Virus record (IMG/VR): IMGVR_UViG_3300030060_007264
Span: 1,067 to 23,161 of that record
Source of the DNA: a virus
Strand: one strand, 5' to 3'
DNA: 22,095 nucleotides
Below, piece after piece: positions 386 through 20,258 of this stretch (its first letter is position 1; the number at the start of each line of letters is the position of its first letter). Below the pieces are notes generated by a model that saw only the letters and a program-made list of their open reading frames with translations, ran no database searches and was not told the DNA's origin. The translations under genes and the position numbers were made by a program.

Positions 386-402
386 TCGTCTATAAATATA
401 CG
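386..402 (-). promoter_or_regulatory. Promoter-like ATATTTATA motif upstream of gp32
   Basis: In the direction of gp32 this reads TATATTTATAGACGAG. It shares the nine-base core ATATTTATA with six other gaps of the window, but has GAC where the others have TAT. It lies about 80 bases before the gp32 start and directly after the end of the upstream gene. The core is the reverse complement of the T4 late promoter TATAAATA. Confidence 0.4.
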
Positions 403-430
403 AATAATTTTATTTCTATACAAGCTTTTT

Positions 431-838
431 TTATTTTTTATCACATTCTGAATTACATCCACATTTTTTATCCCATTTTCCAATAGGACACTCAGCGACT
501 GCATAGTGAACTTTTACATTCATAAAACACCCACACAATGGACACCTACCATCTTTTTTTCCTGTGTCTGGATTGGTTTCATCATAAAGAAGTTTAGGAC
601 AAGCTTTACAAATCTCCCATCTTCGTTCAGCCTCTTCTTGACTTGTAATAACTTGAGAACCTTTAACCCAAGCTTTTAAGGACTTCCAATGAGTAACAGC
701 TAAGTCACGAACCATTTGAGATGCTGGTGGAAGTTTATTTTCTTCCTCCAGCATTTTCTCAGTTTCTTCAATACATTCTAGTTCTTCTTTAGTGGCTTCT
801 CTATCTTTAGTAACTTTTGGTTTGAACTTAAAGCTCAC
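431..838 (-). CDS. Cysteine-rich, probably zinc-binding small protein
   Basis: This 135-residue protein starts with GTG at 838, behind AGGAG. The GTG overlaps the TGA stop of the preceding gene (GTGA), so translation is probably coupled. The first 40 residues are charged and probably helical. The C-terminal half holds C77-x2-C80, C99-x2-C102-x-C104 and C117, followed by PIGKW, then C126, C128 and C132. The spacing suggests at least one zinc ribbon. The arrangement of C-x2-C, GRCPLCGCF and ECPIGKW resembles small phage proteins of unknown function. No catalytic motif is visible. It sits between a thioredoxin-fold protein and gp32, at the end of a two-gene unit. Function unknown. Confidence 0.8.
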   Translation of the reverse strand: MSFKFKPKVTKDREATKEELECIEETEKMLEEENKLPPASQMVRDLAVTHWKSLKAWVKGSQVITSQEEAERRWEICKACPKLLYDETNPDTGKKDGRCPLCGCFMNVKVHYAVAECPIGKWDKKCGCNSECDKK

Positions 839-1605
839 TTAACTCCTAAGTGTTTCATGAGTTTATCCATCTTCTGTTCAATTCTTTGGAATCTAGCTTC
901 TAAATCTGGAGTTATACCAGTTACATTACCAGCTGGTGATTGTTGATTTTTCTGTCTATCTCTAGCTTGTTTCATTCTTTCAACTAAAACCGCAGATGGT
1001 TGGAGATTTGGTAAATGAGTATTGTCTTTAATCCAAACATCATACTCTTTACCCCAATCTTCAAATTGTTCATCTGTGGCATCAACTCCCATAGGTGGAC
1101 GAGGTGGGTCTGACTTTGGTCTCGGCCTCTCCAATATTTCTTCAGCTGTTTGTATTTTTGGAAGGTGTTCGTTTTCCTTTGTCCACGTTTCGTATTCTTC
1201 TTTCCATTTAGATATCTCTTTCTCAGTAGCACCATGGAATGGAACTTTTGGTATAGGGCCTTTAGGTCTTGGTGGAGCAGGTATGTCCTCACCATTAACC
1301 CACTTAGTAAGAGTTTCTTTATCTCTAAAACCACATACTTGATTACCCGTTTCACCATCTATGAACCATGGAGTTCCACATTGTTTTCCATATTTTTGTG
1401 ATAGTTCGTTTTTTAAACCTTGATTATCTTTTTCAGCTAAGTCAAGCTTTAGAATGTCGTGGCCTTCTTTTATTAGCTCATCGACAATTGGGTCTGCTTT
1501 TTTACAAAAACCACATCCTACTGAGTAAAAATAATATAGGGTGGATTCTTTTGGGGTTTCTTGTTTTACTTCTTTTAAGACTTCTTTGTCTTTTTTCTTG
1601 GCCAT
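835..1605 (-). CDS. Thioredoxin/glutaredoxin-fold protein with two tandem 50-residue repeats
   Basis: 256 residues, ATG at 1605 with an AGGAG site. Residues 21-105 look like a thioredoxin or glutaredoxin fold. Strand LYYFYS precedes the redox motif C31-G-F-C34, and T78-P79 gives the usual cis-proline. Additional cysteines lie at 76 and 91. Two repeats of about 50 residues follow (112-160 and 161-210). Each opens with PRPK, is proline-rich, has a W-x(3)-Y-x-x-W helix and an HLP turn, and ends in a V/L-E-R helix. Residues 232-253 could form a coiled coil. The family is known for dithiol-disulfide exchange. The substrate and the role of the repeats are unknown; the repeats suggest a binding platform or virion anchor. 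It heads a two-gene unit with the cysteine-rich protein downstream. Confidence 0.75.
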   Translation of the reverse strand: MAKKKDKEVLKEVKQETPKESTLYYFYSVGCGFCKKADPIVDELIKEGHDILKLDLAEKDNQGLKNELSQKYGKQCGTPWFIDGETGNQVCGFRDKETLTKWVNGEDIPAPPRPKGPIPKVPFHGATEKEISKWKEEYETWTKENEHLPKIQTAEEILERPRPKSDPPRPPMGVDATDEQFEDWGKEYDVWIKDNTHLPNLQPSAVLVERMKQARDRQKNQQSPAGNVTGITPDLEARFQRIEQKMDKLMKHLGVK

Positions 1606-1663: not shown

Positions 1664-2059
1664 TTAAACTTTTTCTATTTTAAATATTCTTGTATTGATT
1701 TTATTCAATCCATCTGCGTTAGTTATTAATAACATGTTTTTAAAATTTTCCCACGGCACCATAAACTTTTCATCCATAACACCATTGTTTAAATTCTTTA
1801 TACATTCATTCAATGCATTGATTGTATATAATGTATTAGAGTGTTTTTTTCTATGTAGGGAAATCGTTCCATCTACTTTATTGTAATCCACACCACCCTC
1901 AGTACTTACATTATATGTGCAGATTAATTCATTCACATTGTTTTCATTTTGTAATACATACACTTTACTGAATATAATCGTATACGCATCTGTGATTTTC
2001 TTAATTGTATCATCAAGACTTTCTTTTGTTGTAAATGTGCATAGTAGTTGTGATTTCAT
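1664..2059 (-). CDS. Conserved phage protein of unknown function (131 aa)
   Basis: Its ATG overlaps the stop of the preceding 675-residue gene (TAATG), so translation is probably coupled. The protein is mixed alpha/beta with no membrane segment. It opens MKSQLLCTFTTKESLDDTIK, has a strand region around VYVLQNE and ELICTYNV, and a distinctive block ISLHRKKHSNTLYTINALNE followed by NLNNGV. The block looks familiar from unnamed proteins of marine T4-like phages (from memory, not checked). The start fits the whole protein, with no plausible later start. It ends the long operon. It may act together with the 675-residue protein, but nothing in the sequence shows how. Confidence 0.75.
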   Translation of the reverse strand: MKSQLLCTFTTKESLDDTIKKITDAYTIIFSKVYVLQNENNVNELICTYNVSTEGGVDYNKVDGTISLHRKKHSNTLYTINALNECIKNLNNGVMDEKFMVPWENFKNMLLITNADGLNKINTRIFKIEKV

Positions 2060-4086
2060 TATTCTTCTTCTTTTGTTCTCAATGTCGCTGCACTATCTGG
2101 AAAACGAATTGGCTCTTGGTCTCCAAAAATATCTCGTGAAACCGACTCAACATATTTACCAAAGTCTTGAGCAACTAACATTTCAAATTTGTGAGCACCA
2201 CCATATCCCTCACCATCTTCCCTAATACCAATTGTTGTAATTGGAACAACCACATCTTTTCCTCTAACTTTACCTTGATATTGTATTGCTGGTGGGTCTG
2301 CGTCAGGATTTACTACTAATTGTTCAACAACTTGATTCCAATCATCAGTTCCAAATATACCTTCCATTGTTTTTTTATTTATAACAAATTCACCTAAAAT
2401 TATACTCTCATCACCATCTGATACAGATTTAAGTGGTAATTTTTCTTGAACTTTTTTTAATACAGATGCTTTAGCTTCATCACTTGTATTAATAAATGTG
2501 GCTACCTCTTTAGCATGTTCTTTAGCTATTAATTTTTGTTGTTTTACAAACTCTCCACCCATTACATCACCATAGTCGTTCATCATAAGTCCCAAAGTCA
2601 TAGATACTTTATCCATACCTCTTTTGTCTGATTTAAGTCCTTGGGTTTTGAGATTTTGTTTAATGTAATCTCTTGTTAAAACTAAATTAGGATTTTCAGC
2701 TAAATCTTTTTTATATTGAGATAGAAACCCATTAAACCCATCTTTTATTAATGATTGATTAGTTTCTTTATTATCCATATTTTTAGCTACTTTATCAAGT
2801 GTCTCGTCAAAATCATCATTATCACCAACACTACTTAAAAACTCGTTTATATTACCTTGATTATTTTGATAAAAGTTATCTATGTTTTTTACTTGATTTT
2901 CTTTATATTGATTTACACCTTTTTGTTGTAAATGTTGTGGTAAAACATCATCCTCAAAAGCAGAGCCAAGTGTTCCGTTCCATAACCTTTGATTTTTTAA
3001 TTTTTGTTTCAAAGATATTTCTTCTTTCATCACAGTATCACCAACTTTTACTGTAAACATAATATCTGTACTATATCCTTTTTCATCATAATCTTGCCCT
3101 AAAGCTTCAAATTCCTCTTGAATATCCCAAGCCGAACCAACTATTTCATAGTCTTTTCCATACTTATCATACATCATTCTTAAAATGGCTGAACTATTTT
3201 CTTTAGCTGCTTTAGACCAAGCTGATGATACGTATATTTTTTCACCTCTAGCTTTTGCTTTTTGTATGTGTTCGTCTATATTTCTAAAAAACTCAGCTCT
3301 ATCATCACGATTCATTGTTGTGGCCATCATTGACAAAAGTTCACCTGCATTAGCATCTGTGTTTCCAGCACCAGCTTTTCCTATACCATAATAATCTGAG
3401 TAATTGTTTTTATCTTTTGTATTTTTTTGTGTATTCATTACTCTTTCAATAAATTGTGTATACTTTTTTGGTATTTTTGGATTATTTTTTACACCATCGG
3501 GCATTGTAAAAGTGTCTGTGGTTTGATTTCCAATGTTTTTTGCTTTAAAATCTTCATTACTCATTTCTAGTGGTTCACTATATACTTTTCCACCAATTTT
3601 TTCTCTTTGACTATCAGATTTTGATTTTGGTTTATCTTCAGTATCTTTATCTTTATCACTTTTACCAGTCATATACTTTTCAGTATCACCCAAATCACTT
3701 GGTTTTAATTTTTCACCACTATCTTCTTTATCTTGTTTAGTATCCGTATCACCATCTAAATTAGCAGCTTTCACAGCAGCTTCCTTTTCATCACTCCCTT
3801 TTCCTTGTTCAATATCTGAAGCATATTGTCTAGCGGTTTTCATCGTGATGGTTCTCGTCTCACCAGTTCTTGGGTCTTTAAAAGTTACTTTTTCCTCATC
3901 ATCATCTTGTTCATTTATGATGTTGTGAATAACCTGATAAATTATATCATTGGGTAAATTTAACTTTTCCATTGATTCACGAAGTTGTTGAATGTGTTGT
4001 GCGTTTTTTGGATTAGGCATTCCATCGTGAACACGATATGCCCATTCTACTAATATAGTCTCAATGATTTCTGAAATATGTTGCAT
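2059..4086 (-). CDS. 675-aa protein with possible PD-(D/E)xK-like core, function unknown
   Basis: ATG at 4086 directly follows the stop of the polymerase-like gene. Residues 1-58 form a helical domain containing VEWAYRVHDGMPNPKN and ending in VIHNIINE. Such N-terminal domains occur, from memory, in several otherwise unrelated marine phage proteins. Residues 60-165 are a very polar, low-complexity linker rich in D, K, E and S. Residues 230-375 look folded. They include KIYVSSAWSKAAKE, then YSTDIMF with D341, and KEEISLKQ with E356 and K360. This spacing recalls a PD-(D/E)xK nuclease, but residue 358 is Ser, not Asp or Glu, so the match is weak. The rest is mostly helical and ends acidic. Position between a polymerase-like gene and gp32 would fit DNA metabolism. 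A virion role is equally open. Confidence 0.6.
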   Translation of the reverse strand: MQHISEIIETILVEWAYRVHDGMPNPKNAQHIQQLRESMEKLNLPNDIIYQVIHNIINEQDDDEEKVTFKDPRTGETRTITMKTARQYASDIEQGKGSDEKEAAVKAANLDGDTDTKQDKEDSGEKLKPSDLGDTEKYMTGKSDKDKDTEDKPKSKSDSQREKIGGKVYSEPLEMSNEDFKAKNIGNQTTDTFTMPDGVKNNPKIPKKYTQFIERVMNTQKNTKDKNNYSDYYGIGKAGAGNTDANAGELLSMMATTMNRDDRAEFFRNIDEHIQKAKARGEKIYVSSAWSKAAKENSSAILRMMYDKYGKDYEIVGSAWDIQEEFEALGQDYDEKGYSTDIMFTVKVGDTVMKEEISLKQKLKNQRLWNGTLGSAFEDDVLPQHLQQKGVNQYKENQVKNIDNFYQNNQGNINEFLSSVGDNDDFDETLDKVAKNMDNKETNQSLIKDGFNGFLSQYKKDLAENPNLVLTRDYIKQNLKTQGLKSDKRGMDKVSMTLGLMMNDYGDVMGGEFVKQQKLIAKEHAKEVATFINTSDEAKASVLKKVQEKLPLKSVSDGDESIILGEFVINKKTMEGIFGTDDWNQVVEQLVVNPDADPPAIQYQGKVRGKDVVVPITTIGIREDGEGYGGAHKFEMLVAQDFGKYVESVSRDIFGDQEPIRFPDSAATLRTKEEE

Positions 4087-5400
4087 TTATAACCTCTTTG
4101 TAATATCTTGCATTTCACCATAGTTTAATCCCATTTTGGATTTGGTAAAATGTTTTCCTTCCTCTAAAATTGATTTTATATCTTTCAAAGTTTCCACTCC
4201 ATCTTGTTGTGAGAAATCAAATAGGAAACTATCATATCCATATAAAACCAATTTAGTGTTCTTATTTAATAAATAGTCTTGAATTAATAAAATCTTCTTA
4301 ATATTTGATTCCGTCTCAAAAGCTTGAATCAAATAATTAAAAACTTTGTTTCTATTTAAATCTTCGTAATTATTATATGTAAGTTTCCTTCTATAAATAT
4401 CAGTATAAACACAATTATGTGTATTTATTTCATTCCATTTTGAATTAATGTATTCATGAACTTTTCTAAAAAATGGTACTTTTTCTCTGGTTTGTTTATC
4501 AATTCCACCATACAATAGTTTAAATGTTCTTTGTTTTGATTCTTCATATGAACATTCATAGTGTTCTGCAAGATGTTCATGTACTGAATTTTCACCAAAT
4601 TTATAATCAACTAAATCAGCGATTAATCTTAAATGATATGCATCAAAGTCAAATTCAACTAAATAATCATTTTCAGGCACTATGGATTTTCTCTTTTCGG
4701 GTGGTAGAGCTGCGAAATTAACAGTTCCAAATGCATTTGATGGACGACCTGTTGTTGTGGTAAGATTGTAGTTGGAATATAATTTACCATTCGATATATG
4801 TTTTTTAACTCTTACGTCAAATATATCACATACGTCATTGGATACCTTTACCCCATTTTTTTCTATATTGTAAAAAGCCTTTATCTTATCAAGTGCTCCA
4901 CTATTTTCAAACCACCCATCATCATCAATAAGGTTTTCTAAATCTTTCTTCACCCATTCCAATATCTTGTCTGTAACCTTATCACAATACTCTTTGTGTT
5001 TGCTTATTGGTATGATTTCGTTAAGTTTTTTTACATTGTAGTATTTATTACTCAAAAAATCCATTGCATTGTTTCTTACTTCCAAGTCTAAAGGTTTTCC
5101 ATGTAACCACCAATGTCCAATATTCACATCAAGAATACATCTATATTCAGGCAATATTGGTAATAATTTCTTAGCATCAGGTGTCATAACAATCTGTTTA
5201 TCATCCATTAGAAATGAATAATCAACCATGTATTGATTGGAATCTGGATGTTTTTGAGGTAAGATATAACTCTTTGATGAATCCCAATTATCCACATCAT
5301 GTCCATGAATTTCTCTAATATAAAGTAGCGACAACTTGTTATTCTTATGTAGTGGATGTAAGAATGGCTCTGAATATATGGGTATAACAATATAAATCAT
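4087..5400 (-). CDS. Divergent family A DNA polymerase-like protein without a clear exonuclease domain
   Basis: 437 residues, ATG at 5400. The ribosome site is weak. The C-terminal half carries the PolA signatures in order. TTTTGRPSN at 214-222 matches the T-x-T-G-R-x-S block. Motif A is D251-F-D-A-Y-H256-L-R258. Motif B is K289-x3-F293-x3-Y297-G298. An N-Y-L-I-Q359 block follows, and motif C is Y389-D390-S391. Aligned to E. coli Pol I, both catalytic aspartates (D705, D882) are kept, as are K758, F762 and Y766. The Pol I steric-gate Glu710 is replaced by His256, His881 by Tyr and Glu883 by Ser. The N-terminal 200 residues show no clear 3'-5' exonuclease motifs. It could be a small repair or translesion polymerase, a nucleotidyltransferase with another use, or an inactive relative. 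T4 itself replicates with a family B enzyme (gp43). Confidence 0.7.
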   Translation of the reverse strand: MIYIVIPIYSEPFLHPLHKNNKLSLLYIREIHGHDVDNWDSSKSYILPQKHPDSNQYMVDYSFLMDDKQIVMTPDAKKLLPILPEYRCILDVNIGHWWLHGKPLDLEVRNNAMDFLSNKYYNVKKLNEIIPISKHKEYCDKVTDKILEWVKKDLENLIDDDGWFENSGALDKIKAFYNIEKNGVKVSNDVCDIFDVRVKKHISNGKLYSNYNLTTTTGRPSNAFGTVNFAALPPEKRKSIVPENDYLVEFDFDAYHLRLIADLVDYKFGENSVHEHLAEHYECSYEESKQRTFKLLYGGIDKQTREKVPFFRKVHEYINSKWNEINTHNCVYTDIYRRKLTYNNYEDLNRNKVFNYLIQAFETESNIKKILLIQDYLLNKNTKLVLYGYDSFLFDFSQQDGVETLKDIKSILEEGKHFTKSKMGLNYGEMQDITKRL

Positions 5401-5447
5401 ACTACAATATATAACCTTTTATGTTAAAAAACAAGCTTTTTTATAAG

Positions 5448-8400
5448 TTATCCTGCTGCACCTAAACAACAACAATTAGGGCCCTGTTCAAATCCAGCTC
5501 CATTTGTATTACACCAAGCAGTGCAACTATGTTCATTTCCATTCCAAATAACTTGACAAGCTTGTCCATCTGGATTATTATAATAATCAGATATGTTACT
5601 ATTCGATCCATCGTGACGACAAGGTATGGTTGCATCTGGATTGTACATTTCATCACCTGGTATCATGCATCCAATTATATTTACAGGCCCTTCAGATTCA
5701 TCTTCAGATGGTGTGGCTTCACTCACACAAGATTGTACATCTGCATTATAATGTTGATGTGATGGGTCTGTTGGCGCACCTAAATAATCACAACATGGTT
5801 TTTTAAGACATGTACCAACGCTGAACAAATCAAATTGAAAAACACAATATGTGGTTGGACAATCATCACTTCCAAAGATTTCAACCCCAACTTCATCACA
5901 AATATCACACGCAGGATCATAATATAAACAAGAACCATCATCAGTTGTAGCATTTAGATTGTAATTTGTAGCGTTCAAATCTGTACAACCTGGCCAATCA
6001 GGTATTGCTGGTGTTGTGAATGGTTGTAGTTCATCATTAACAATCACACCCTCAGTTGTTAATTGTGTTCGATCTGCGTTTTGGAATTGAATGAATAAAT
6101 CCCAATTTTCAGGATTACCTCGTAAGTATTGATCAATTTCACTTCTATAGTAGCTACCATAGTCATCATCTTCATATCCACTTAAATAATGAGTCAAATA
6201 ATAATTTATAGCCTCTTCTCCCTCACCATATTTATCTGTTGAAAAATCATGATTAGCATCATAATCATAATACTTTATGTGTTCAGGATCACTTACAACT
6301 GCCCAATTTTGCCCATTGGTTATTAAATAGTAGTCATTTCCATTTTCAAGCACTATACCAAAATAAGAAAAATCATCAGGCCTATTCATTATGGTGTTTT
6401 TAGTGTGTTGTTCATCAGTCGTTGTGTCACCAAATACTGGATCGAATTTACCTGTATTAAATGTTTCAAGAGTTTTTGATAAATCTTGAGAAAGTGTTTT
6501 TATCTTTTTAGTTGATAGTTTTGCTCCATATCCAATCAATGGCCCTTTTATTATTTTAACATCTTTTACGGCTCTATTACCTGAAGCTTTTGTATTTAAA
6601 ACTTTAACTTCCCTATTTGGGAATATTAACATCATACCCTCTTGTGGTAAACTGACTTGTTGCCAATCACTACTAAGATAACCTAAATTTGTGTCCAAAC
6701 CATATTTTTTTGGTGACTTACCAAAGTATTTATAACCCCATTTAATTTTAAAAACTTTATCAATGAATTGATAATTCTCGGCTGGTGAATAAGGAGTTAT
6801 TGATTTTAACCCAGCCATAAAATGTTCATTACTCACAAGTTCACCACCACCCTCAAGATCAGCGGTTGCAGCGAGCCTTTCTGGCCTTGGATTCTCCGTT
6901 GCCTCTTGACCAAGTGTCCACCATAAATTATCTTTTATATCTAATAAATTCAATTTTTCAAATATATTTCTTGGGTCATATACTGTGTCGGGTACCGAGT
7001 TACCTGTGGAGGAAGCTATACTTGGATTGTATGTTGATGATTTTATTTCAGGTCTTATTCTAAATTGAGTGTCCAATGTTGTATACCAACCATCAACTCC
7101 AATATCATGTGTTACTTTTGTTGTTTGAAAATAAACATTATCTTTATATATTTTTGGTAAATAATTAACTTTAAAAATATCACCTGGTTGTATACTTGAT
7201 ATTCCATAAATTGTTAAATTAAGGTTCATTGGTAATAAATTAGGAACTTCCTCTTTTACAACCTTAGATATAAAATATTTTCCATAATAATCTTTAGTGT
7301 CCTCAGCTACCTGAACACCAAGAGCTTGTTGTGCAAGTAAGTTTTCATCTATTTGTCGTTGTAATCTTGATTGAGCTGAACCATCAGTATCTTTGGTTTT
7401 GTCTTCACTCTCTTGTTCACTTTCAGTAAAATCTTGCTCCTCTAATTCTGTAGAGTTATACATACTACCAATAATATTATTTTCATTAGATTGTTTTCCT
7501 CTAATTGGATAAGTGTCATCTGATACTAAATCTAAAGTTTTTTGATATGATGAAGCTAAAAGTGCATTTTTATCAGCCGTTAATTGATTACCACGAAAAG
7601 CACTATTATCAGGAAGATATCTTATGGATAAATTATCTTTATCAACAGCTGTTAATCCCACGACATCATCAATTCTTTTACTAATTGGATTTGGTTTGTT
7701 ACCATGACTCATGGCTTGAATGGCTAACATGTCTCCAATACCACCATCGGGCATGTTGAATGAAACATCATATGATTTAACTATTGAGTTTCCAGATGTA
7801 ACGTCAAATTCAAAAATTTTATCAAATGCATCATTTTGTACACTTTGTTGTGTTTGATTATCACTCGAGTTTCCAGCATTAGATATTTTTTCTTGAATGT
7901 CTAATTTATTACCATCAATGATTGATAACTCAGAGTCAACCTGTCCTGATTTTAATCTTAAATCCATAATACCATATGAATCATCATTTATTTTTTCTAA
8001 CAAATCCTCTATAGCACTTTGAACGGAACTTGAACTTTTAAATGATTTTAATATCTCTTCAGCACTAATGAATAACTCTCTTATTGGTATTCTATTTTTT
8101 TGTTTATCAAGTTGAGCTTCATCATCAATATCATCCTCATAATTTGGTGTTTTTCCAATTTGAGATGAATAAGAATTGCCCTCATCATTTGGACTTGAAT
8201 TACCCCACCATTCTGGATATACACAGATTGGTGCACCTTCACCCGGCGCATCTAATGCTTTTTGATAGTCTAATAATTTAACATTATAAGTTGTAAAGTT
8301 TTTTGATGAATCAATTCGTGTTTGTAAATTATTACCTGTATTGATATTATTTTTTTTAGTTTTATCAATATCATTTCCAAATCCAAATTGAGAATTTATA

Positions 8401-9743
8401 ATTATATCCTCAAATAAACCAATTGAAATATAAGTGTCATTTATATTACCATCGTTGATAAAAACACCAGTTCTAATTGAATTGTTGTGTGAGGGTATAG
8501 TTTCATCAACTCCAGGCGTGAACTTATTACCTGATAATAATTTACGACTTAGATAATTTACGTTAGCGTTGAATGTTTTTACATCATCCGTTGAGGAGTT
8601 AGCGTTTGGTATATCTATTATTTGTTTTGCATCAATTTCATCATCAGTAATATTATCTTGAACGTCAGATACCAATGGATTGATGGCTAAATATTTAATG
8701 GTATGATTTAGAATATTTTCAATATTTAATTTTACAGTTCTATTTACTTCAAGTGTTAACATAGCAGCGTTAGCTGATGTTATGGTTAACTCACATTCAA
8801 CGCTACCATCTTGCATTATTTTAGAACTAAAATTATTAACAATACCATCAATAACATCCATGTTTGAATAATTTTCTGTTACGAATCCTTGTTTGGAATC
8901 ACCCTTGTCAGTTTCACCATATAGAAATGTCTTAATGTCTCCACTATCTATTAAGTCTTGAGGTTCGTATAATGAGTCTGTGTTTAAAGTTCCCCATCCA
9001 AAATCTAAGAATATTCTAGCGCCTGGTTTTAAAAAGTATTTACTATATATGTTTTCAAAATCATCAAAGTTGTGAACCATGAATCGTATACTTGTTTGTT
9101 TTCTAACACCAAACATATCTTGAGTTTCTGAATTAATTGAAATAATTCCAGCGTCAGGTTTTAAAAATGGATTTTTTGAGTTTTGATTTTGAAAAAATGT
9201 TGATTCATCTTCTTGATTATTAGGATTAAATAAATTAAAGTTATTGGTGTTCACTTGATAGATTTTAAAATCAAAAGTTTTGTCCTCAACATCTTGTCCA
9301 GTTTTTACAAACCACGCACCATTGGGATATTGCTCCGTTCCTTCAACCCAAACAACTTTAGAACCCTCATTTAATTGAGCTAAATTATTGGCCTTTCCTT
9401 CAGCTACAAGTTTTTCTTTTTCTATATATTCTTGATTAGACGTTGAATTTGGGGCTACTTCAAAAACAGCTAAGTTTTCAATCGCTTGTTCAGGTGTAAC
9501 CAACTCCACAGCCGTCCACATTCTAGCGAATGGAGTTCTTGATGATAAATCTGCAACACCATTGAAATCATTATTTATTAATTCACCAAACTCCCAATAA
9601 TTTTCATTATCATATTTTTTGTATCGTTTAGATGCAACCTCATCATTAGGGTGACGAGTTCGAGATGCAGCTAGTTGTCTAGCTTCAAGTACCTGTTTTA
9701 CTTTTATTGGTAAATCAGAACCAAATATTCTTTCATTAATCAT
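5448..9743 (-). CDS. Giant baseplate hub protein (gp27/gpD-like) with cysteine-rich C-terminus
   Basis: 1431 residues, ATG at 9743, six bases after the LysM gene. Residues about 190-330 include FLKPDAGIISINSE, ARIFLDFGWGT and ECELTITSANAAMLTLE, typical of hub beta-barrels. Residues about 815-900 include FISKVVKEEVP, LNLTIYGISSIQPGDIFKV and KVTHDIGVDGWYTTLDTQF, which match the second hub barrel of gp27, P2 gpD and VgrG proteins. From 900 to 1250 there is a mixed region of unknown fold. From 1252 to the end there are 18 cysteines in 180 residues. This part includes the module GCTDLNATNYNLNATTDDGS and a shorter relative near residue 1358, and ends NCCCLGAAG. T4 gp27 has only 391 residues. Hub identity is likely from motif and from position after tape measure, cap and LysM genes. 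The C-terminal part may form a spike or bind a partner. Confidence 0.75.
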   Translation of the reverse strand: MINERIFGSDLPIKVKQVLEARQLAASRTRHPNDEVASKRYKKYDNENYWEFGELINNDFNGVADLSSRTPFARMWTAVELVTPEQAIENLAVFEVAPNSTSNQEYIEKEKLVAEGKANNLAQLNEGSKVVWVEGTEQYPNGAWFVKTGQDVEDKTFDFKIYQVNTNNFNLFNPNNQEDESTFFQNQNSKNPFLKPDAGIISINSETQDMFGVRKQTSIRFMVHNFDDFENIYSKYFLKPGARIFLDFGWGTLNTDSLYEPQDLIDSGDIKTFLYGETDKGDSKQGFVTENYSNMDVIDGIVNNFSSKIMQDGSVECELTITSANAAMLTLEVNRTVKLNIENILNHTIKYLAINPLVSDVQDNITDDEIDAKQIIDIPNANSSTDDVKTFNANVNYLSRKLLSGNKFTPGVDETIPSHNNSIRTGVFINDGNINDTYISIGLFEDIIINSQFGFGNDIDKTKKNNINTGNNLQTRIDSSKNFTTYNVKLLDYQKALDAPGEGAPICVYPEWWGNSSPNDEGNSYSSQIGKTPNYEDDIDDEAQLDKQKNRIPIRELFISAEEILKSFKSSSSVQSAIEDLLEKINDDSYGIMDLRLKSGQVDSELSIIDGNKLDIQEKISNAGNSSDNQTQQSVQNDAFDKIFEFDVTSGNSIVKSYDVSFNMPDGGIGDMLAIQAMSHGNKPNPISKRIDDVVGLTAVDKDNLSIRYLPDNSAFRGNQLTADKNALLASSYQKTLDLVSDDTYPIRGKQSNENNIIGSMYNSTELEEQDFTESEQESEDKTKDTDGSAQSRLQRQIDENLLAQQALGVQVAEDTKDYYGKYFISKVVKEEVPNLLPMNLNLTIYGISSIQPGDIFKVNYLPKIYKDNVYFQTTKVTHDIGVDGWYTTLDTQFRIRPEIKSSTYNPSIASSTGNSVPDTVYDPRNIFEKLNLLDIKDNLWWTLGQEATENPRPERLAATADLEGGGELVSNEHFMAGLKSITPYSPAENYQFIDKVFKIKWGYKYFGKSPKKYGLDTNLGYLSSDWQQVSLPQEGMMLIFPNREVKVLNTKASGNRAVKDVKIIKGPLIGYGAKLSTKKIKTLSQDLSKTLETFNTGKFDPVFGDTTTDEQHTKNTIMNRPDDFSYFGIVLENGNDYYLITNGQNWAVVSDPEHIKYYDYDANHDFSTDKYGEGEEAINYYLTHYLSGYEDDDYGSYYRSEIDQYLRGNPENWDLFIQFQNADRTQLTTEGVIVNDELQPFTTPAIPDWPGCTDLNATNYNLNATTDDGSCLYYDPACDICDEVGVEIFGSDDCPTTYCVFQFDLFSVGTCLKKPCCDYLGAPTDPSHQHYNADVQSCVSEATPSEDESEGPVNIIGCMIPGDEMYNPDATIPCRHDGSNSNISDYYNNPDGQACQVIWNGNEHSCTAWCNTNGAGFEQGPNCCCLGAAG

Positions 9744-9748
9744 TTTTG

Positions 9749-10018
9749 TTAAAAACCTTTTGCTCTATCAGTTGATATTGGTATTCTTAATGATGTTCCA
9801 GCTGGAATGTTATTAGTTGTTAAATTATTTACTTTCGCTATAAACCACCACAATGACGCATCATTATAAAACTCATTAGCTAAATTATCACATCTGTCAC
9901 CTTCTTGTGCTATGAAATACATGTCATCATTTTGTTCAGGTACTTTTTCATATATGGTTGTTCCATAAGCGTTTTTTCCACTTTTTTTACTAACTCGTGT
10001 TTGTTTATATCTAGCCAT
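9749..10018 (-). CDS. LysM-domain tail protein (gp53- or gpX-like)
   Basis: 89 residues. Its ATG lies inside the end of the preceding gene, with an 8-base overlap (ATGGCTAG). The ribosome site GGAG lies within that gene. Residues 34-80 form a LysM-like domain: YFIAQEGDRCDNLANEFYND, then LWWFIAKVNNL and IPAGTSLRIP. This matches the LysM part of baseplate wedge protein gp53 (ANAIYG..LYWVLL in T4) and the small P2 gpX proteins. In contractile tails these link hub, tube and baseplate. T4 gp53 is about twice as long, so this is a minimal version. Its place between the cap and hub genes fits. Confidence 0.75.
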   Translation of the reverse strand: MARYKQTRVSKKSGKNAYGTTIYEKVPEQNDDMYFIAQEGDRCDNLANEFYNDASLWWFIAKVNNLTTNNIPAGTSLRIPISTDRAKGF

Positions 10019-11732
10019 TTGAATCTCCTACATATCCATAGAATGAATAATCATTTTCAGATTCTTCGGTTTCAAGATTTCCTGATTCCGCGATTTGTTT
10101 AAATTGTGGTACGTCCCCATGAATTACTTGATATGAAATAGTAACCATTATGTGTCTAGGCGCTCTTTTTCCTTCCTCAGTTTCATATGGAGATTCTTCA
10201 GGAATGTTATAAGATAAACTTTTTATAAATCCTGTTAATTCATTGTTTTCTCTACCAAACATTTCACCAATTCTCATTTTTGTAAGTGGTGGTTTCATAC
10301 GTAATCTTGATTGGTCATCTTTTTTATATTCTGGATAAGCTAAAGATGTAAGTCTATTTATTTTAGTATATATCATTGAAAATTCATCAGGTGTATGGGC
10401 GAATAATTTTAAATTAAAGTTAATTTCTCGTTCAGCGCTTTGATAAACATACACAGGTTCACTACGACCAATATAATTTGTGGGGTTCCAGTTTGGACTA
10501 ACACTTTCAGTCAAGCCATCTATGTAAGCTCTAAAGAATATATATCCATTATCTCTCAAATCTTTAAAGTAAAACGGCATTCCGTTCTTATAAGACTCAA
10601 CGTTAAAGTTTAATTGTTCGTCTCCAGCTTCTGTTGATGCCACATCAACTTTTAAGTTATCACCTTTAATAATTTTAGCTAACGTTACTCTATCACCCGA
10701 CTTAACAACTGCATTTTTATTTCTATATCTACTTCCAACGGCTACAAGACTACCACCTCTTCTTGTATCAACCAATGGACTATTTGTGTCAGTTGAAAAT
10801 TGCATATACCCACCAAAACTTGGATGAATACTATAATCATTTACTACACTCTCGTAGTCGGTGAATTGAGAAAAATTAGCTGTAGGAGTTTGAAACAATT
10901 CACCTGTTGGAAGACTTGGTATATCAAAACTATTATCAGTTGGTAATGGAAAATCTCTTCTTAACAAAGTGGGGAGAGATGGCACTCCTCCTTGATTTCC
11001 AGACCCCACCACTCTTGCCAAGGAAGAACCTAAAGTTGATAATGGGCTGTACAACGATGCAAATCTAGATGGTGAAATTATTGTTGATTCCGATGGTGAA
11101 CCATCATTAGATGGAATAGCCCATTCAGCTTGTGAACCAGCCACACCTAAAGCATTTTGCTTAGCTATAAAAGCCAATCCAGCTGGTGATGATAAATACT
11201 TAGTTAACCTAAGTGTATCCGTAACAGCTCTAATTAATGGAATTGAACGTCCTCCTTGATTTAAAATTCTACCACCACTTAAACCTTCAGTTGTTGGTAT
11301 GTTTGATACTATGTATGGTTCACCCCCACCAATTCCTAAAAAATCATCTCTAGAGGGGCTGAATATACTAACTTTCCGTGAGTCTCCCCCACCTCTAATT
11401 TTTAAATTATCTCTATTTACCTCTCCCCCATACAAATATGGTTGAATTGTATTTCCACTTCTTGGACTAGGTGAATCTATCGTTAATGGATTATGGTCTG
11501 AGGTGTATAGTTTTTCCCATGATGAACCATTTAATGGTCTGTTGATATCAATTCTATTAGGTTCAACTAAACTACTTTTTGGTATTCTTGTTAATTGTCT
11601 TGTTAAATTATCAGGTGAAACAATTGGAAAAAGATTTATGTCATTAAGTGAGCTGTTATCACCTCGATGAACACTTTCATTTGGAAAGTCGGGTAAATCA
11701 TTAAATATACTATTTAGATTTTCTAAAGCCAA
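10011..11732 (-). CDS. Baseplate tail-tube cap/initiator protein (gp48/gp54-like)
   Basis: 573 residues with a TTG start at 11732, behind GGAG at about 11740. The first 380 residues are Gly-, Ser- and Pro-rich, with little recognisable structure. The C-terminal domain from about 387 is characteristic. It has FFRAYIDGLTESVSPNWNP, YIGRSEPVYVYQSAEREINF, a helical KINRLTSLAYPEY, then FIKSLSYNIPEESPYE and HIMVTISYQVIHGDVP. This resembles the gp48/gp54 class that caps the hub and starts tube polymerisation. T4 gp48 (364) and gp54 (320) are shorter; here one longer protein may do both jobs. It lies between the tape measure and LysM genes. The two T4 roles cannot be separated from sequence alone. Confidence 0.7.
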   Translation of the reverse strand: MALENLNSIFNDLPDFPNESVHRGDNSSLNDINLFPIVSPDNLTRQLTRIPKSSLVEPNRIDINRPLNGSSWEKLYTSDHNPLTIDSPSPRSGNTIQPYLYGGEVNRDNLKIRGGGDSRKVSIFSPSRDDFLGIGGGEPYIVSNIPTTEGLSGGRILNQGGRSIPLIRAVTDTLRLTKYLSSPAGLAFIAKQNALGVAGSQAEWAIPSNDGSPSESTIISPSRFASLYSPLSTLGSSLARVVGSGNQGGVPSLPTLLRRDFPLPTDNSFDIPSLPTGELFQTPTANFSQFTDYESVVNDYSIHPSFGGYMQFSTDTNSPLVDTRRGGSLVAVGSRYRNKNAVVKSGDRVTLAKIIKGDNLKVDVASTEAGDEQLNFNVESYKNGMPFYFKDLRDNGYIFFRAYIDGLTESVSPNWNPTNYIGRSEPVYVYQSAEREINFNLKLFAHTPDEFSMIYTKINRLTSLAYPEYKKDDQSRLRMKPPLTKMRIGEMFGRENNELTGFIKSLSYNIPEESPYETEEGKRAPRHIMVTISYQVIHGDVPQFKQIAESGNLETEESENDYSFYGYVGDSNG

Positions 11733-16021: not shown

Positions 16022-18409
16022 TTACTCTGGAAAAGAAGCGCCTGTAGGTTGTATTGTAAAGTCTAATACAATGAACTCAGCAGTTCTTGTAGGTTGTAAG
16101 AATAATTGTCCAACTAATTGATTTCTATCAATTGTATCAGGTGTATTATTCGTTTCGTCCATCACCACCCTAAAAGCAGTTAATCCACTTTGAGATTGAA
16201 CGTTTTCCAAGAAAGGATTAACTATTGATAAAAATCTTCTCCGTGTTGCGGCTGTATTTTGTTCAAATACAAGGAATCTTGAAGAACTTGCTATAAACTT
16301 CTTCACATTTATCAATAATCGTCTAACATTCACTCTGTCCAATGCACTTGCTTTTTTCTGTAATGTTTTTTGCCCAAACACAGTCACTCCTTGTCCAGGA
16401 AATGTAGCGATTGGATTCACATTACTATCATACAAAGTATCTCTATCTGCTCGGGTAAGCTTTCTTTCAGCAAATGATGCGATGTCAATTGTACCCCTAT
16501 TCAATCCTGCTGGAGCGAACCATGGATGAGCCACTCTATCATTAAATGAGTAAACACCTGCTACCATTACTGATGGTGGCACCCATCTTTGGAAACCAGA
16601 TACTTGCGAATCAGGTATTTTTACCCAAGGCCAATACATGGCTGCGAAGTTAGAGTTTTTCTTTTTAGCTTCTGTCGTAGCATCTGCTACATTTTTATTA
16701 TACTCCACAGGATCTATAATAGCGAAACAATCTCCTCTGTCTTCACATACGTCAATTACCTTTGAAACCACACCACCATGAATTGAATTAATAATACCAG
16801 GCACTAAGATTAAATTAACGTCAAACTCGTCTTGATTTGATATTAAATCTAAAGCCTGAGTGTATTGATTGAACCCATTCGCGGCTCCATCATCACTTGG
16901 GTCTAAGCCTTGTGAATTATTTTCTGCTATATTTTCATAAAATGTTCTTGGATGTTGAACCGTCCCATCACTTCCACCTTCAAAACCACCATGTAAAGAA
17001 CCACTACCAGTTGAAGGTAAAGAGGCAGATGCTGCTGGTATTCTAACATCACCATTTTCATCAATATAATCAATGGTTGATTCATTAACACTATCTAAAT
17101 ATACATAATTTGATTTTCTAGCATATGAGCCGGTAAGTCTTAAATATGGTTTACCATTTTCATCAGTAGCGATTGTAAACACTTGGTCACCCACTGCTTT
17201 AGCTATGTAATTTGGTGAATTCGGGTCTAGATTAACATTATTAAAAGTTTCCAATACTTGTTTTCTTTTAATAGTATCATCACCTCTTCGTATCACTAAG
17301 TTGAAAGTACCTTTATTGTTAACTCTTGATGGTATTTCAAATCTTACGTTGTCAGCTGAACCACTCAATAGAATACTATTCTCACCAACAGGTCCTGCAC
17401 TGTTCATTATTTCACCATGTGAAAATGTTCTTAATACAAATGGTTCTTTTGCTGCTGGTGATAATCCATTAGCTGTCTGTCCAAAATCTAATCCTCCACC
17501 TGAGCCACTTGTTGTAGCTATATTTGAAATCGCTGGATCTGTTACATGACCAGTCATAGTAAAATGAAAGTCACCTTGTGAACCATGACTTAATGGAGTT
17601 AATTGAGCAGATGACGAATTAGCAACAAATGTTCCTAAATTACCATTCACTAATGTATTTGCATTAACTCCACCCTTACTAGCTGTTAAACCAACTAGAT
17701 TAGCACCATCGGTTGATGCACTAACGGGTAAATTGTGAAGAGACGCACTACGATTAATAGCATCTCTTAAATTTTCTGCATTTAGTTTTCTACTATTTGC
17801 TACAACCGCATGGGATGCAGAGTTAACATAAATCACCGTTGCTGTATCAGCAGTAACTCCATCTATTGTTGTCTCACCTGTTGTTCCAGGCTTTTGAGCA
17901 GACGCTGTAAATACAAACTTCACTGTATTTCCATTATTTGGAGTGATTGAACATGAGGTAGAATTAAGTGTTGAACCTTCTTTTGCACCACCCTCAATTT
18001 CTGTGATTGTGAAACTACCAGTATTGTGAGCTCCACCTCCAACTATAGATGGGTCGATAGATGCAGACACTGTGGCTTTAGCACTATCATACTCACCAGC
18101 TAGTATTCTAACAACAGTCAATTTATCACTATTTTTTAAATATTGTTCAGCTGTGTGTGATGTTAAAAATTGATTAACACTACCTGTAGTTTCTGTTCCC
18201 GTACCAGTATACACATCAGAGCCACTTTCAAAGGTTGTCCCAAATATTTGTTGATACTCTGAGAATGATGTAACCACGGTTGGAACTAAAACAGGCCCTT
18301 TTACCGTTGGGCCTATTACACAAGCCCCAATTTCAGCAACAGCCGCTGGTAAAAATGTTTGGTCTACTTCATTAGTAAAAACACCGGGACTAACTATTTT
18401 TTCTGCCAA
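16022..18409 (-). CDS. 18: Tail sheath protein, long paralogue with inserted domain
   Basis: 795 residues starting with TTG at 18409, behind GGAG. Only 16 bases separate it from the first sheath gene, so the two are co-transcribed. The N-terminus MAEKIVSPGVFTNEVDQTFL and the block LTSHTAEQYLKNSD match the first copy. The last 141 residues differ from it at four positions only and end TIQPTGASFPE. Compared with the short copy it carries about 185 extra residues around 118-305, rich in T, S, G, N and A. This stretch includes a repeat-like segment, ENLRDAINRSASL with TVIYVNSAS before it, typical of small surface beta domains in phage proteins. In T4, gp18 (659 residues) forms the contractile sheath, and its middle domains point outward. 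The insertion would therefore lie on the outside of the sheath. Confidence 0.9.
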   Translation of the reverse strand: MAEKIVSPGVFTNEVDQTFLPAAVAEIGACVIGPTVKGPVLVPTVVTSFSEYQQIFGTTFESGSDVYTGTGTETTGSVNQFLTSHTAEQYLKNSDKLTVVRILAGEYDSAKATVSASIDPSIVGGGAHNTGSFTITEIEGGAKEGSTLNSTSCSITPNNGNTVKFVFTASAQKPGTTGETTIDGVTADTATVIYVNSASHAVVANSRKLNAENLRDAINRSASLHNLPVSASTDGANLVGLTASKGGVNANTLVNGNLGTFVANSSSAQLTPLSHGSQGDFHFTMTGHVTDPAISNIATTSGSGGGLDFGQTANGLSPAAKEPFVLRTFSHGEIMNSAGPVGENSILLSGSADNVRFEIPSRVNNKGTFNLVIRRGDDTIKRKQVLETFNNVNLDPNSPNYIAKAVGDQVFTIATDENGKPYLRLTGSYARKSNYVYLDSVNESTIDYIDENGDVRIPAASASLPSTGSGSLHGGFEGGSDGTVQHPRTFYENIAENNSQGLDPSDDGAANGFNQYTQALDLISNQDEFDVNLILVPGIINSIHGGVVSKVIDVCEDRGDCFAIIDPVEYNKNVADATTEAKKKNSNFAAMYWPWVKIPDSQVSGFQRWVPPSVMVAGVYSFNDRVAHPWFAPAGLNRGTIDIASFAERKLTRADRDTLYDSNVNPIATFPGQGVTVFGQKTLQKKASALDRVNVRRLLINVKKFIASSSRFLVFEQNTAATRRRFLSIVNPFLENVQSQSGLTAFRVVMDETNNTPDTIDRNQLVGQLFLQPTRTAEFIVLDFTIQPTGASFPE
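17223..17269. repeat. 47-base stretch identical in the two sheath genes, copy in the long gene
   Basis: This tract encodes KRKQVLETFNNVNLDPN and is base-for-base the same as 19660-19706, while flanking codons differ at third positions. It is a candidate gene-conversion tract. Confidence 0.8.
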
Positions 18410-18425
18410 TTTCTTTCTCCTCTAA

Positions 18426-20258
18426 TTACTCTGGAAACGATGCACCAGTTGGTTGAATTGTAAAGTCTAATACAATGAACTCAGCTGTTCTTGTTGGTTG
18501 TAAAAACAACTGGCCTACTAATTGATTTCTATCAATTGTATCCGGCGTGTTGTTGGTTTCATCCATAACAACTCTAAATGCATTTAGTCCACTTTGTGAT
18601 TGTACTTGCTCTAAAAATGGGTTAACAATGCTCAAGAATCTTCTTCTTGTAGCTTGTGTGTTTTGCTCAAACACTAAAAATCTAGATGAAGAAGCGATAA
18701 ACTTCTTAACTCTAATTAATAATCTTCTAACATTTACTCTATCCAACGCCGAAGCCTTCTTTTGTAGAGTTTTCTGTCCAAATACCGTTACACCTTGTCC
18801 AGGAAATGTCGCTATTGGGTTTACGTTTGAATCATATAATGTATCCCTATCAGCTTGAGTTAGTTTTCTTTCAGCTTGAATAGCCACATCAATACCACCA
18901 CGATTCAAACCTGCTGGAGCAAACCAAGGATGAGCTACTTTATCATTGAAAGCATAAATTCCACCTAATACAACTGATGGTGGCACCCACCTTTGAGTTC
19001 CACTAACCAATGTATCAGGAACTTTAATCCATGGCCAATACATGGCTGCGAAATTAGAATTTTCCTCTTCAGCTTCCGTTGTAGCATCTGCTACATTTTT
19101 ATCATATTGCACTGGATCGATAATTGCAAAACAATCACCTCTATCCTCACACACATCAATTACTTTAGTTGTAATGGTTGAATGAACATCATGTAAAATA
19201 CCAGGTGTAAGAATTAAGTTAACATCATATTCATCTTGATTTGATAATAAGTCTAAAGCTTGATTGTAAGCATTAATACCTCTATCTTTATTACTTACAT
19301 CAATACTAAATCCTTGTGTTTGTGCAACTATTAATTCATAAAAATTAGCTGGTTTAGCACTATCGTGTCCTTCATGAACACCAAGAGCGTTAAATCCACT
19401 TTGTCCGTTTAATCCCCCTTTAAATGCACCACGAACAGAACCACTTCCACTCTGTGGTAAAGAAGCTGATAAAGCACCAAGTCTAACATCACCATTCTCA
19501 TCAACGTAGTCGATAGTGGTTCTAATGTCAGATACTCTAACAAACTTGGATTTATTTGGAAAATCACCATTTAATTTTATAAATGGTTTTAAATTCTCAT
19601 CTGTTCCAATTGAATTAAATTGAGTTCCAACAGCTTTTCCAATAAAGTTTGGAGTATTTGGGTCTAGATTAACATTATTAAAAGTTTCCAATACTTGTTT
19701 TCTTTTTTCGCTATCATCACCTCTACGAATTATCAAATTAAAACTACCCTTTGATACATTTACACCATTAATTTCATATCTAATATTATGTTCAGAACCA
19801 CTTGGTAACAAATCATTTGCATTAACAGTACTACTACTGTTATTCATTATTGTTCCGTCTGATAATGTTGTTAATACAAATGCAGCGTTTCCATCATCAC
19901 CATTGGAGAAAGATGGACCTGGAGTGTCACCACCACCAAAACTACCTGTTGGTACGTTTGCAGTCGCTGGGCCAAATGTCCCATCCATTATCCTCACAAC
20001 TGTTAAAGTATCACTATTTTTTAAATATTGCTCAGCTGTGTGTGATGTTAAAAATTGAAATGAGTTCGAACCACTTTTAAACACATCTCCGAATTTCTGT
20101 TGAAAGTCTGAGAATGATGTTACAATGGTTGGTACTCCTGCGGGTCCTTTTACTGTAGGCCCTATTAAAGCTGCTCCAATATCTGTAACAGCTGCGGGTA
20201 AAAATGTTTGATCTATTTCATTGGTAAAAACACCGGGGGAAATTATTTTCTCGGCCAT
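18426..20258 (-). CDS. 18: Tail sheath protein, short paralogue
   Basis: 610 residues, ATG at 20258 with GGAG before it, near the length of T4 gp18 (659). It starts MAEKIISPGVFTNEIDQTFL and shares VPTIVTSFSDFQQKFG, LTSHTAEQYLKNSD, the IIRRGDD block, KVIDVCEDRGDCFAIIDPVQ, AAMYWPWIKVPD and GLNRGGIDV with the second copy. The C-terminal part, with FGQKTLQKKASALDRVNVRR and RTAEFIVLDF, is nearly identical to that copy. It forms the contractile sheath by family knowledge. Having ATG, a regular size and the first position, it is probably the major sheath subunit, and the long copy a minor or specialised one (inference). Confidence 0.92.
   Translation of the reverse strand: MAEKIISPGVFTNEIDQTFLPAAVTDIGAALIGPTVKGPAGVPTIVTSFSDFQQKFGDVFKSGSNSFQFLTSHTAEQYLKNSDTLTVVRIMDGTFGPATANVPTGSFGGGDTPGPSFSNGDDGNAAFVLTTLSDGTIMNNSSSTVNANDLLPSGSEHNIRYEINGVNVSKGSFNLIIRRGDDSEKRKQVLETFNNVNLDPNTPNFIGKAVGTQFNSIGTDENLKPFIKLNGDFPNKSKFVRVSDIRTTIDYVDENGDVRLGALSASLPQSGSGSVRGAFKGGLNGQSGFNALGVHEGHDSAKPANFYELIVAQTQGFSIDVSNKDRGINAYNQALDLLSNQDEYDVNLILTPGILHDVHSTITTKVIDVCEDRGDCFAIIDPVQYDKNVADATTEAEEENSNFAAMYWPWIKVPDTLVSGTQRWVPPSVVLGGIYAFNDKVAHPWFAPAGLNRGGIDVAIQAERKLTQADRDTLYDSNVNPIATFPGQGVTVFGQKTLQKKASALDRVNVRRLLIRVKKFIASSSRFLVFEQNTQATRRRFLSIVNPFLEQVQSQSGLNAFRVVMDETNNTPDTIDRNQLVGQLFLQPTRTAEFIVLDFTIQPTGASFPE
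19660..19706. repeat. 47-base stretch identical in the two sheath genes, copy in the short gene
   Basis: Partner of 17223-17269. A second shared tract (20009-20058 against 18124-18173) has one mismatch in 50 bases. Confidence 0.8.

Follow-up and report, generated by a model that had tools for sequence, protein, structure and literature searches.

The gene at positions 4087..5400 (minus strand, ATG start) of the virus DNA studied here encodes a member of divPolA1, a 437-aa, thumb-truncated and exonuclease-less homologue of the family A DNA polymerases, which we propose, with a probability of roughly 60%, to act as an accessory DNA polymerase that lacks proofreading and serves in gap filling or in synthesis linked to recombination. 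The window, that is, the whole stretch of 22,095 nucleotides that was analysed, covers bases 1067-23161 of an IMG/VR virus record of 23,161 bases, a size that marks the genome as a fragment. On sequence grounds the gene belongs to an already published family and is not new: divPolA1 was described by Yutin et al. in 2024 from 14 phages, among them the Flavobacterium phage vB_FspM_immuto (PMC11348598). What the present analysis adds is a signature of four active-site residues, an obligate small partner protein, and promoter evidence against co-transcription with the baseplate genes.

The polymerase identity of this protein would be missed by a simple search, since on its own it gave no match in Pfam, PHROGs (E <= 0.01) or NCBIfam, and a single chance chain in the PDB. 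Its relatives in IMG/VR are, in turn, abundant. Three queries, the window protein, the immuto protein and the protein of Microcystis phage Mel-JY01, recovered relatives in 401 of 406, 312 of 316 and 109 of 110 pattern-matching stretches, respectively, with the best 80 kept each time and with sets that may overlap. Among 42 aligned family members, 18 are matched by the Pfam model DNA_pol_A (best E 2e-12), the window protein itself not being one of them, and a PDB search with the profile of the family alignment reaches the Klenow fragment (E 8.7e-4). A direct comparison of the family with six Pol A proteins by hhalign gave a probability of 98.1 and an E of 8.7e-14. The AlphaFold model of the window protein (mean pLDDT 89.9) shows the palm and fingers fold of Pol I, and its top PDB match by Foldseek is the Klenow structure 1kfd (E 2.4e-15). 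Structural alignment with VIA-align extended over 354 residues of Taq polymerase 4n56 (Z 27.1, rmsd 3.3) and 402 of Bst polymerase 4dqi (Z 26.8), spanning residues 1-432. Profile comparison, model and fold search thus agree, and they confirm the open reading frame as a real family A polymerase homologue, in the wide sense of a Pol A palm and fingers fold with two catalytic Asp. They also bear out, together with the residue counts given below, the sequence-only reading, in which the gene encodes a minimal polymerase akin to family A whose active site is altered. The gene is under purifying selection, with dN/dS values of about 0.15-0.22 in seven pairs of the window clade and 0.09-0.13 in six pairs of the immuto clade. 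Between lineages its product is among the most diverged of its gene block, with 29-34% identity, compared with 51% for the family B polymerase (PolB) and 32% for the clamp.

The text of the original work describes the family as having a truncated thumb and an inactivated 3'-5' exonuclease, with replication genes downstream and a regular polymerase alongside that may belong to family A, B or C; its authors infer a replication role and retained activity (PMC11348598). The window protein is homologous to that of immuto (tblastn, 33.1% identity, E 5e-50) and shares with it the truncated thumb, the degenerate exonuclease domain, the intact palm with its catalytic residues, the status, in relatives, of a second polymerase beside a regular one, and the downstream replication genes, which in the record of the window are SSB and UvsX. 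It differs from the published members in coming from a lineage whose relatives use family B, in the 675-aa gene that separates it from the small partner, and in its position directly after the baseplate block. A further thumb-less Pol A found as a second phage polymerase, divPolA2 of barbaviruses, is set apart by its description in the same article, with an unrelated N-terminal domain and a variable gene context (PMC11348598). The present searches extend the family beyond the published phages, to a Microcystis phage, a phage of 484 kb and contigs numbering in the hundreds; the huge-phage protein used as a query gave no relatives (0 of 5 stretches), and bacterial genomes yielded one MAG contig only (1 of 39 stretches). 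In the literature divPolA1 is named by one work, as a preprint and an article. We found no mention there of the His at the steric gate, the Tyr in motif B or the 131-aa partner; figures 4B and 5C/F of the article may show the neighbour or the residues (PMC11348598).

Motifs A, B and C and the TTTGR block are all present in the window protein as named by the sequence-only reading. Motif A reads ...EFD251-F-D-A-Y-H256-L-R, motif B contains K289, F293, Y297 and G298, motif C is L-Y-G-Y389-D390-S391-F, as the Y-D-S proposed in place of H-D-E, and the TTTGR block ends at R219. Equivalent positions in the E. coli enzyme were taken from the hhalign alignment with the six Pol A proteins, and the residue counts refer to the 174 distinct sequences among 217 proteins. 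R219 (R668), the catalytic D251 (D705), K289 (K758), F293 (F762), Y297 (Y766), G298 (G767) and Q359 (Q849) are invariant in all 174, and D390 (D882) and Y389 (H881) occur in 173 each, the remaining protein having an ambiguous X. Set against this conserved core, which the family shares with the Klenow fragment along with the fold, are four fixed swaps around the incoming nucleotide: S707D (D253), E710H (H256), R754Y (Y285) and H881Y (Y389), each in 173-174 of the 174 proteins. In the six diverse reference proteins, by contrast, E710, R754 and H881 do not vary. The residue E710 is a known steric gate (PMC13228545), and the His noted at this position by the sequence-only reading is found in all 174 proteins, as is Tyr285, so that the canonical Pol I signature of a steric-gate Glu and a motif B Arg-x3-Lys is absent from the family. 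Since R754 and E710 hold and check the dNTP, their replacement suggests that the activity could be weak or directed to another substrate. The position of E883 is occupied by Ala or Ser, with one Ile. Ordinary Pol A proteins of Twort and SAC12B also have a Ser after the motif C Asp (HDS), which, judged from these sequences, is not special to divPolA1.

Two further parts of Pol I are reduced. Measured between the glycine of NG and the arginine of TGR (R219), the thumb stretch comprises 36 residues compared with 124 in E. coli Pol I, a thumb about 90 residues shorter. The N-terminal part of the protein aligns structurally with the position of the exonuclease domain, and no set of catalytic acids is retained in it: the acidic residues that it conserves are D91 (169 of 174) and E137 (166 of 174) alone, a pair that does not suffice for an exonuclease site. 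The full thumb and the 3'-5' exonuclease active site of canonical Pol I are thus both missing from the window family. The earlier remark that no exonuclease motifs can be seen holds in the sense that, before position 137, D91 is the only conserved acid. A further difference from the E. coli enzyme, besides the missing exonuclease acids, is that the 5' exonuclease is encoded by a separate gene.

A total of 41 records carrying divPolA1, in sets of 13 and 28, were searched for family B and full-size family A polymerases. The first occurs in 14 of them (6/13 and 8/28) and the second in 11 (1/13 and 10/28), never both together (0/41), which leaves 16 of 41 with neither, probably because these records are fragments. 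Of the 17 records of at least 100 kb, 14 contain a second polymerase, and in the three others (G002, G003 and G028) divPolA1 lies less than 4 kb from one end of the contig, so that the downstream region is missing. The window's own record, a 23-kb fragment, contains no regular polymerase; on contig G009, its closest fetched relative, divPolA1 is accompanied by a gp43-like family B gene, in line with the proposal of a second polymerase type in a T4-like phage. Among the records searched, then, the replicase varies between family A and family B, and the small enzyme stays in place. A family B or full-size family A gene in 25 of the 41 records also rules out divPolA1 as the only replicase of a lineage devoid of gp43. 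Polymerase III was rejected as a companion in our own set (PF07733 in 0 of 20 records); PolC is reported in some divPolA1 phages in the text of the original article (PMC11348598). In two records (G035, 8950-11336, and G046, 53555-55532; those behind loci L184 and L242) the family B match falls into two separate reading frames, of about 600 and 300 aa, as it would in a split or interrupted gene.

The gene stands at the border between tail and replication genes. Upstream, the 1431-aa protein encoded at 5448..9743 (minus strand), syntenic with im_033 of immuto and mel_h2016 of Mel-JY01, closes the tail and baseplate block and is outside the polymerase unit. At its C-terminal end this large protein of baseplate type carries repeats of the form GCTDLNATNYNLNATTDDGSC, a type found in surface proteins of marine Bacteroidota; these repeats and the infection of Flavobacterium (sp. 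LMO8) by immuto are a possible clue to the host. The window also contains two tandem tail-sheath paralogues of 795 and 610 aa (16022-20258, minus strand), the first with extra internal sequence, and one sheath match is seen at their place in G001 and G003. Downstream, the window encodes on the minus strand a 675-aa protein (2059..4086), the 131-aa partner (1664..2059), a 256-aa thioredoxin-domain protein (835..1605; Pfam PF00085, E 4.3e-5) and a conserved 135-aa protein (431..838), which is the last gene before SSB; SSB and then UvsX follow in the record beyond the window. Relatives of the 675-aa protein occupy the same place in G001, G003 and G009, and none was recognised in the immuto or Mel-JY01 block. 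The thioredoxin-domain gene likewise lies within the polymerase block of the window clade and is not conserved there in immuto or Mel-JY01. The T7 polymerase borrows thioredoxin for processivity.

The complete arrangement can be followed in G001, where sheath, tube, lysozyme, hub, tape measure, a 726-aa protein, LysM and the large baseplate-type protein precede divPolA1, which is followed by the 675-aa relative, the 131-aa protein, a thioredoxin-like protein, the 135-aa protein, SSB, UvsX, the 5' exonuclease and DnaB, and further on by the family B polymerase, clamp and clamp loader. In G009 the whole block through PolB and clamp lies on one strand, and the order divPolA1, 131-aa gene, SSB, UvsX, exonuclease and DnaB recurs in G001, G009, immuto and Mel-JY01, with extra genes in between in some of them. 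In Mel-JY01, two genes after the 131-aa member, there is a 428-aa gene (locus L083, 21868-23154) matching the Pfam S-adenosylmethionine lyase (E 4.4e-10), which could possibly be a counter-defence enzyme.

Co-transcription with the baseplate genes, which the sequence-only reading had assumed, found no support in this comparison. The gene heads the replication and recombination block, and in the 47-bp gap before it there is a sigma70-like promoter site, TTGTTT-N17-TATATT (5406..5434, minus strand); a second one, TTG-N20-TATATT (395..423, minus strand), lies just past the 135-aa gene, ahead of the SSB gene that is located outside the window. The motif was derived by comparing relatives. A generic promoter scan did not flag the site before divPolA1, as TTGTTT matches only 3 of 6 positions of the consensus. 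In its strict form, CTTG-N20-TATATT, the motif is found upstream in 44 of 58 window-clade, 59 of 72 immuto-clade and 0 of 78 Mel-like loci (with spacers of 19-21 seen), and in its loose form (TTG) in 56 of 58, 69 of 72 and 12 of 78, respectively, compared with a rate of 0.12-0.19% for the strict form in mononucleotide shuffles. The same type of site precedes PolB and the clamp in G001 and the primase in G003, and it is not exclusive to replication genes, as it is also found before a lysozyme-like gene in G003. In one immuto-clade locus a terminator-like hairpin lies directly upstream of divPolA1. Promoter-like site and hairpin make baseplate co-transcription unlikely in two of the three clades, and divPolA1 probably belongs to a transcription unit other than that of the baseplate genes. 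A distance of 5 nt separates the end of the TATATT box from the ATG in both divPolA1 (window 5400-5411) and PolB (G001, 46310-46345), a spacing that would give nearly leaderless mRNAs.

The most constant companion of divPolA1 is the 131-aa protein, a new family, as judged from Pfam, PHROGs and the PDB, with a predicted alpha/beta fold that is ferredoxin-like in its first half. Among 50,697 phage records, its gene was found in the same six records as divPolA1, which had two further weak matches, both to genes that bear the annotation of another DNA polymerase. Counting only fetched loci with enough flanking sequence, the partner gene is found downstream of divPolA1 in 125 of 125 cases (room of 4 kb or more), and, seen from the partner, divPolA1 is found upstream in 96 of 96 (4.5 kb or more); the two sets share contigs. 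In such testable loci the 131-aa protein is an obligate partner of divPolA1. Its model (pLDDT 94.0) has no PDB match with E <= 0.001, and the best VIA alignment (Z 6.8 over 64 residues) is below a meaningful level. The T4 RegA protein was ruled out as a counterpart (hhalign probability 0.2).

We propose that divPolA1 carries out short, non-proofreading DNA synthesis, either at the replication fork or on recombination intermediates. Its likeliest task would be the filling of gaps after primer removal, where, together with the separately encoded 5' exonuclease, it would amount to a Pol I spread over two genes, and the 131-aa partner may hold it on DNA, standing in for the missing thumb. This proposal draws on the Pol I palm and fingers fold with its catalytic residues, the reduced thumb, the degenerate exonuclease-like domain, the four swaps around the incoming nucleotide, the replicase found beside it in relatives, the block shared with SSB, UvsX, the 5' exonuclease and DnaB, the type of promoter shared with PolB, clamp and primase, the constant small partner and the purifying selection. 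Against it count the replaced R754 and E710, the high divergence, the occurrence of the promoter motif before a lysozyme-like gene and the absence of its strict form from the Mel-like clade, and the 16 records, probably fragments, that show no second polymerase. Very similar facts could be read as a translesion or recombination-repair polymerase, whose lack of proofreading and truncated thumb would suit bypass at gaps bound by UvsX and SSB. Both genes are neighbours in every lineage inspected and the exonuclease-like domain has no conserved catalytic acids; ordinary gap filling, however, fits the same facts, and we regard this more specialised role as rather unlikely.

The invariant E710H, R754Y, S707D and H881Y could instead point to an altered choice of nucleotide, where the His at the known gate and the Tyr for R754 admit ribonucleotides or modified nucleotides, for example in primers or mixed patches. 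We consider this unlikely, since a His is still bulky, F762 and Y766 are retained, and a DnaG-type primase is present in immuto and G003. Single-subunit RNA polymerases, such as those of T7, SP6 and phiKMV, have a palm derived from family A, and they resemble the window protein in the Ser after the motif C Asp (HDS, with YDS in the window protein). Yet this Ser is shared with the ordinary Pol A of Twort and SAC12B, the motif B Arg that is Tyr in divPolA1 is retained by the RNA polymerases (R627, without variation in the three), and the lack of profile similarity to them (hhalign probability 0.1) rejects such a kinship. A doubtful extension of the same idea is a two-part polymerase, in which the 131-aa protein would provide the thumb as a separate chain and the remodelled pocket, with its His gate, its Tyr in place of R754 and its DxD in motif A, would confer a different nucleotide preference, for ribonucleotides or the phage's modified bases. 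Rhodothermus phage RM378, which presumably has a split Pol I, was also considered as kin, and the family profile finds nothing in its 129,908 bases. The fast divergence and altered nucleotide pocket might also be those of a catalytically weak remnant of an ancestral replicase, turned into a DNA-binding or assembly factor after a takeover by family B or another family A enzyme; UvsX does lie a few genes after Pol A in Twort, as do SSB and UvsX in SAC12B. This explanation is improbable, as both metal-binding Asp and the equivalents of K758, Y766, R668 and Q849 persist in essentially every member. Finally, a virion-carried protein expressed with the baseplate genes would account for a gene directly after the last gene of that block and on the same strand, the only pointer to such a role in this analysis; the promoter-like site, the hairpin of the immuto-clade locus and the replication genes downstream make it highly improbable.

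The accessory polymerase that we favour persists across phages whose main replicase changes from one family, A or B, to the other, and it probably does something that the replicase cannot. With its fixed active-site changes and its obligate small partner, a published but unexplained family becomes a concrete subject for the bench, and enzymes of this kind are also of interest to nucleic-acid technology.
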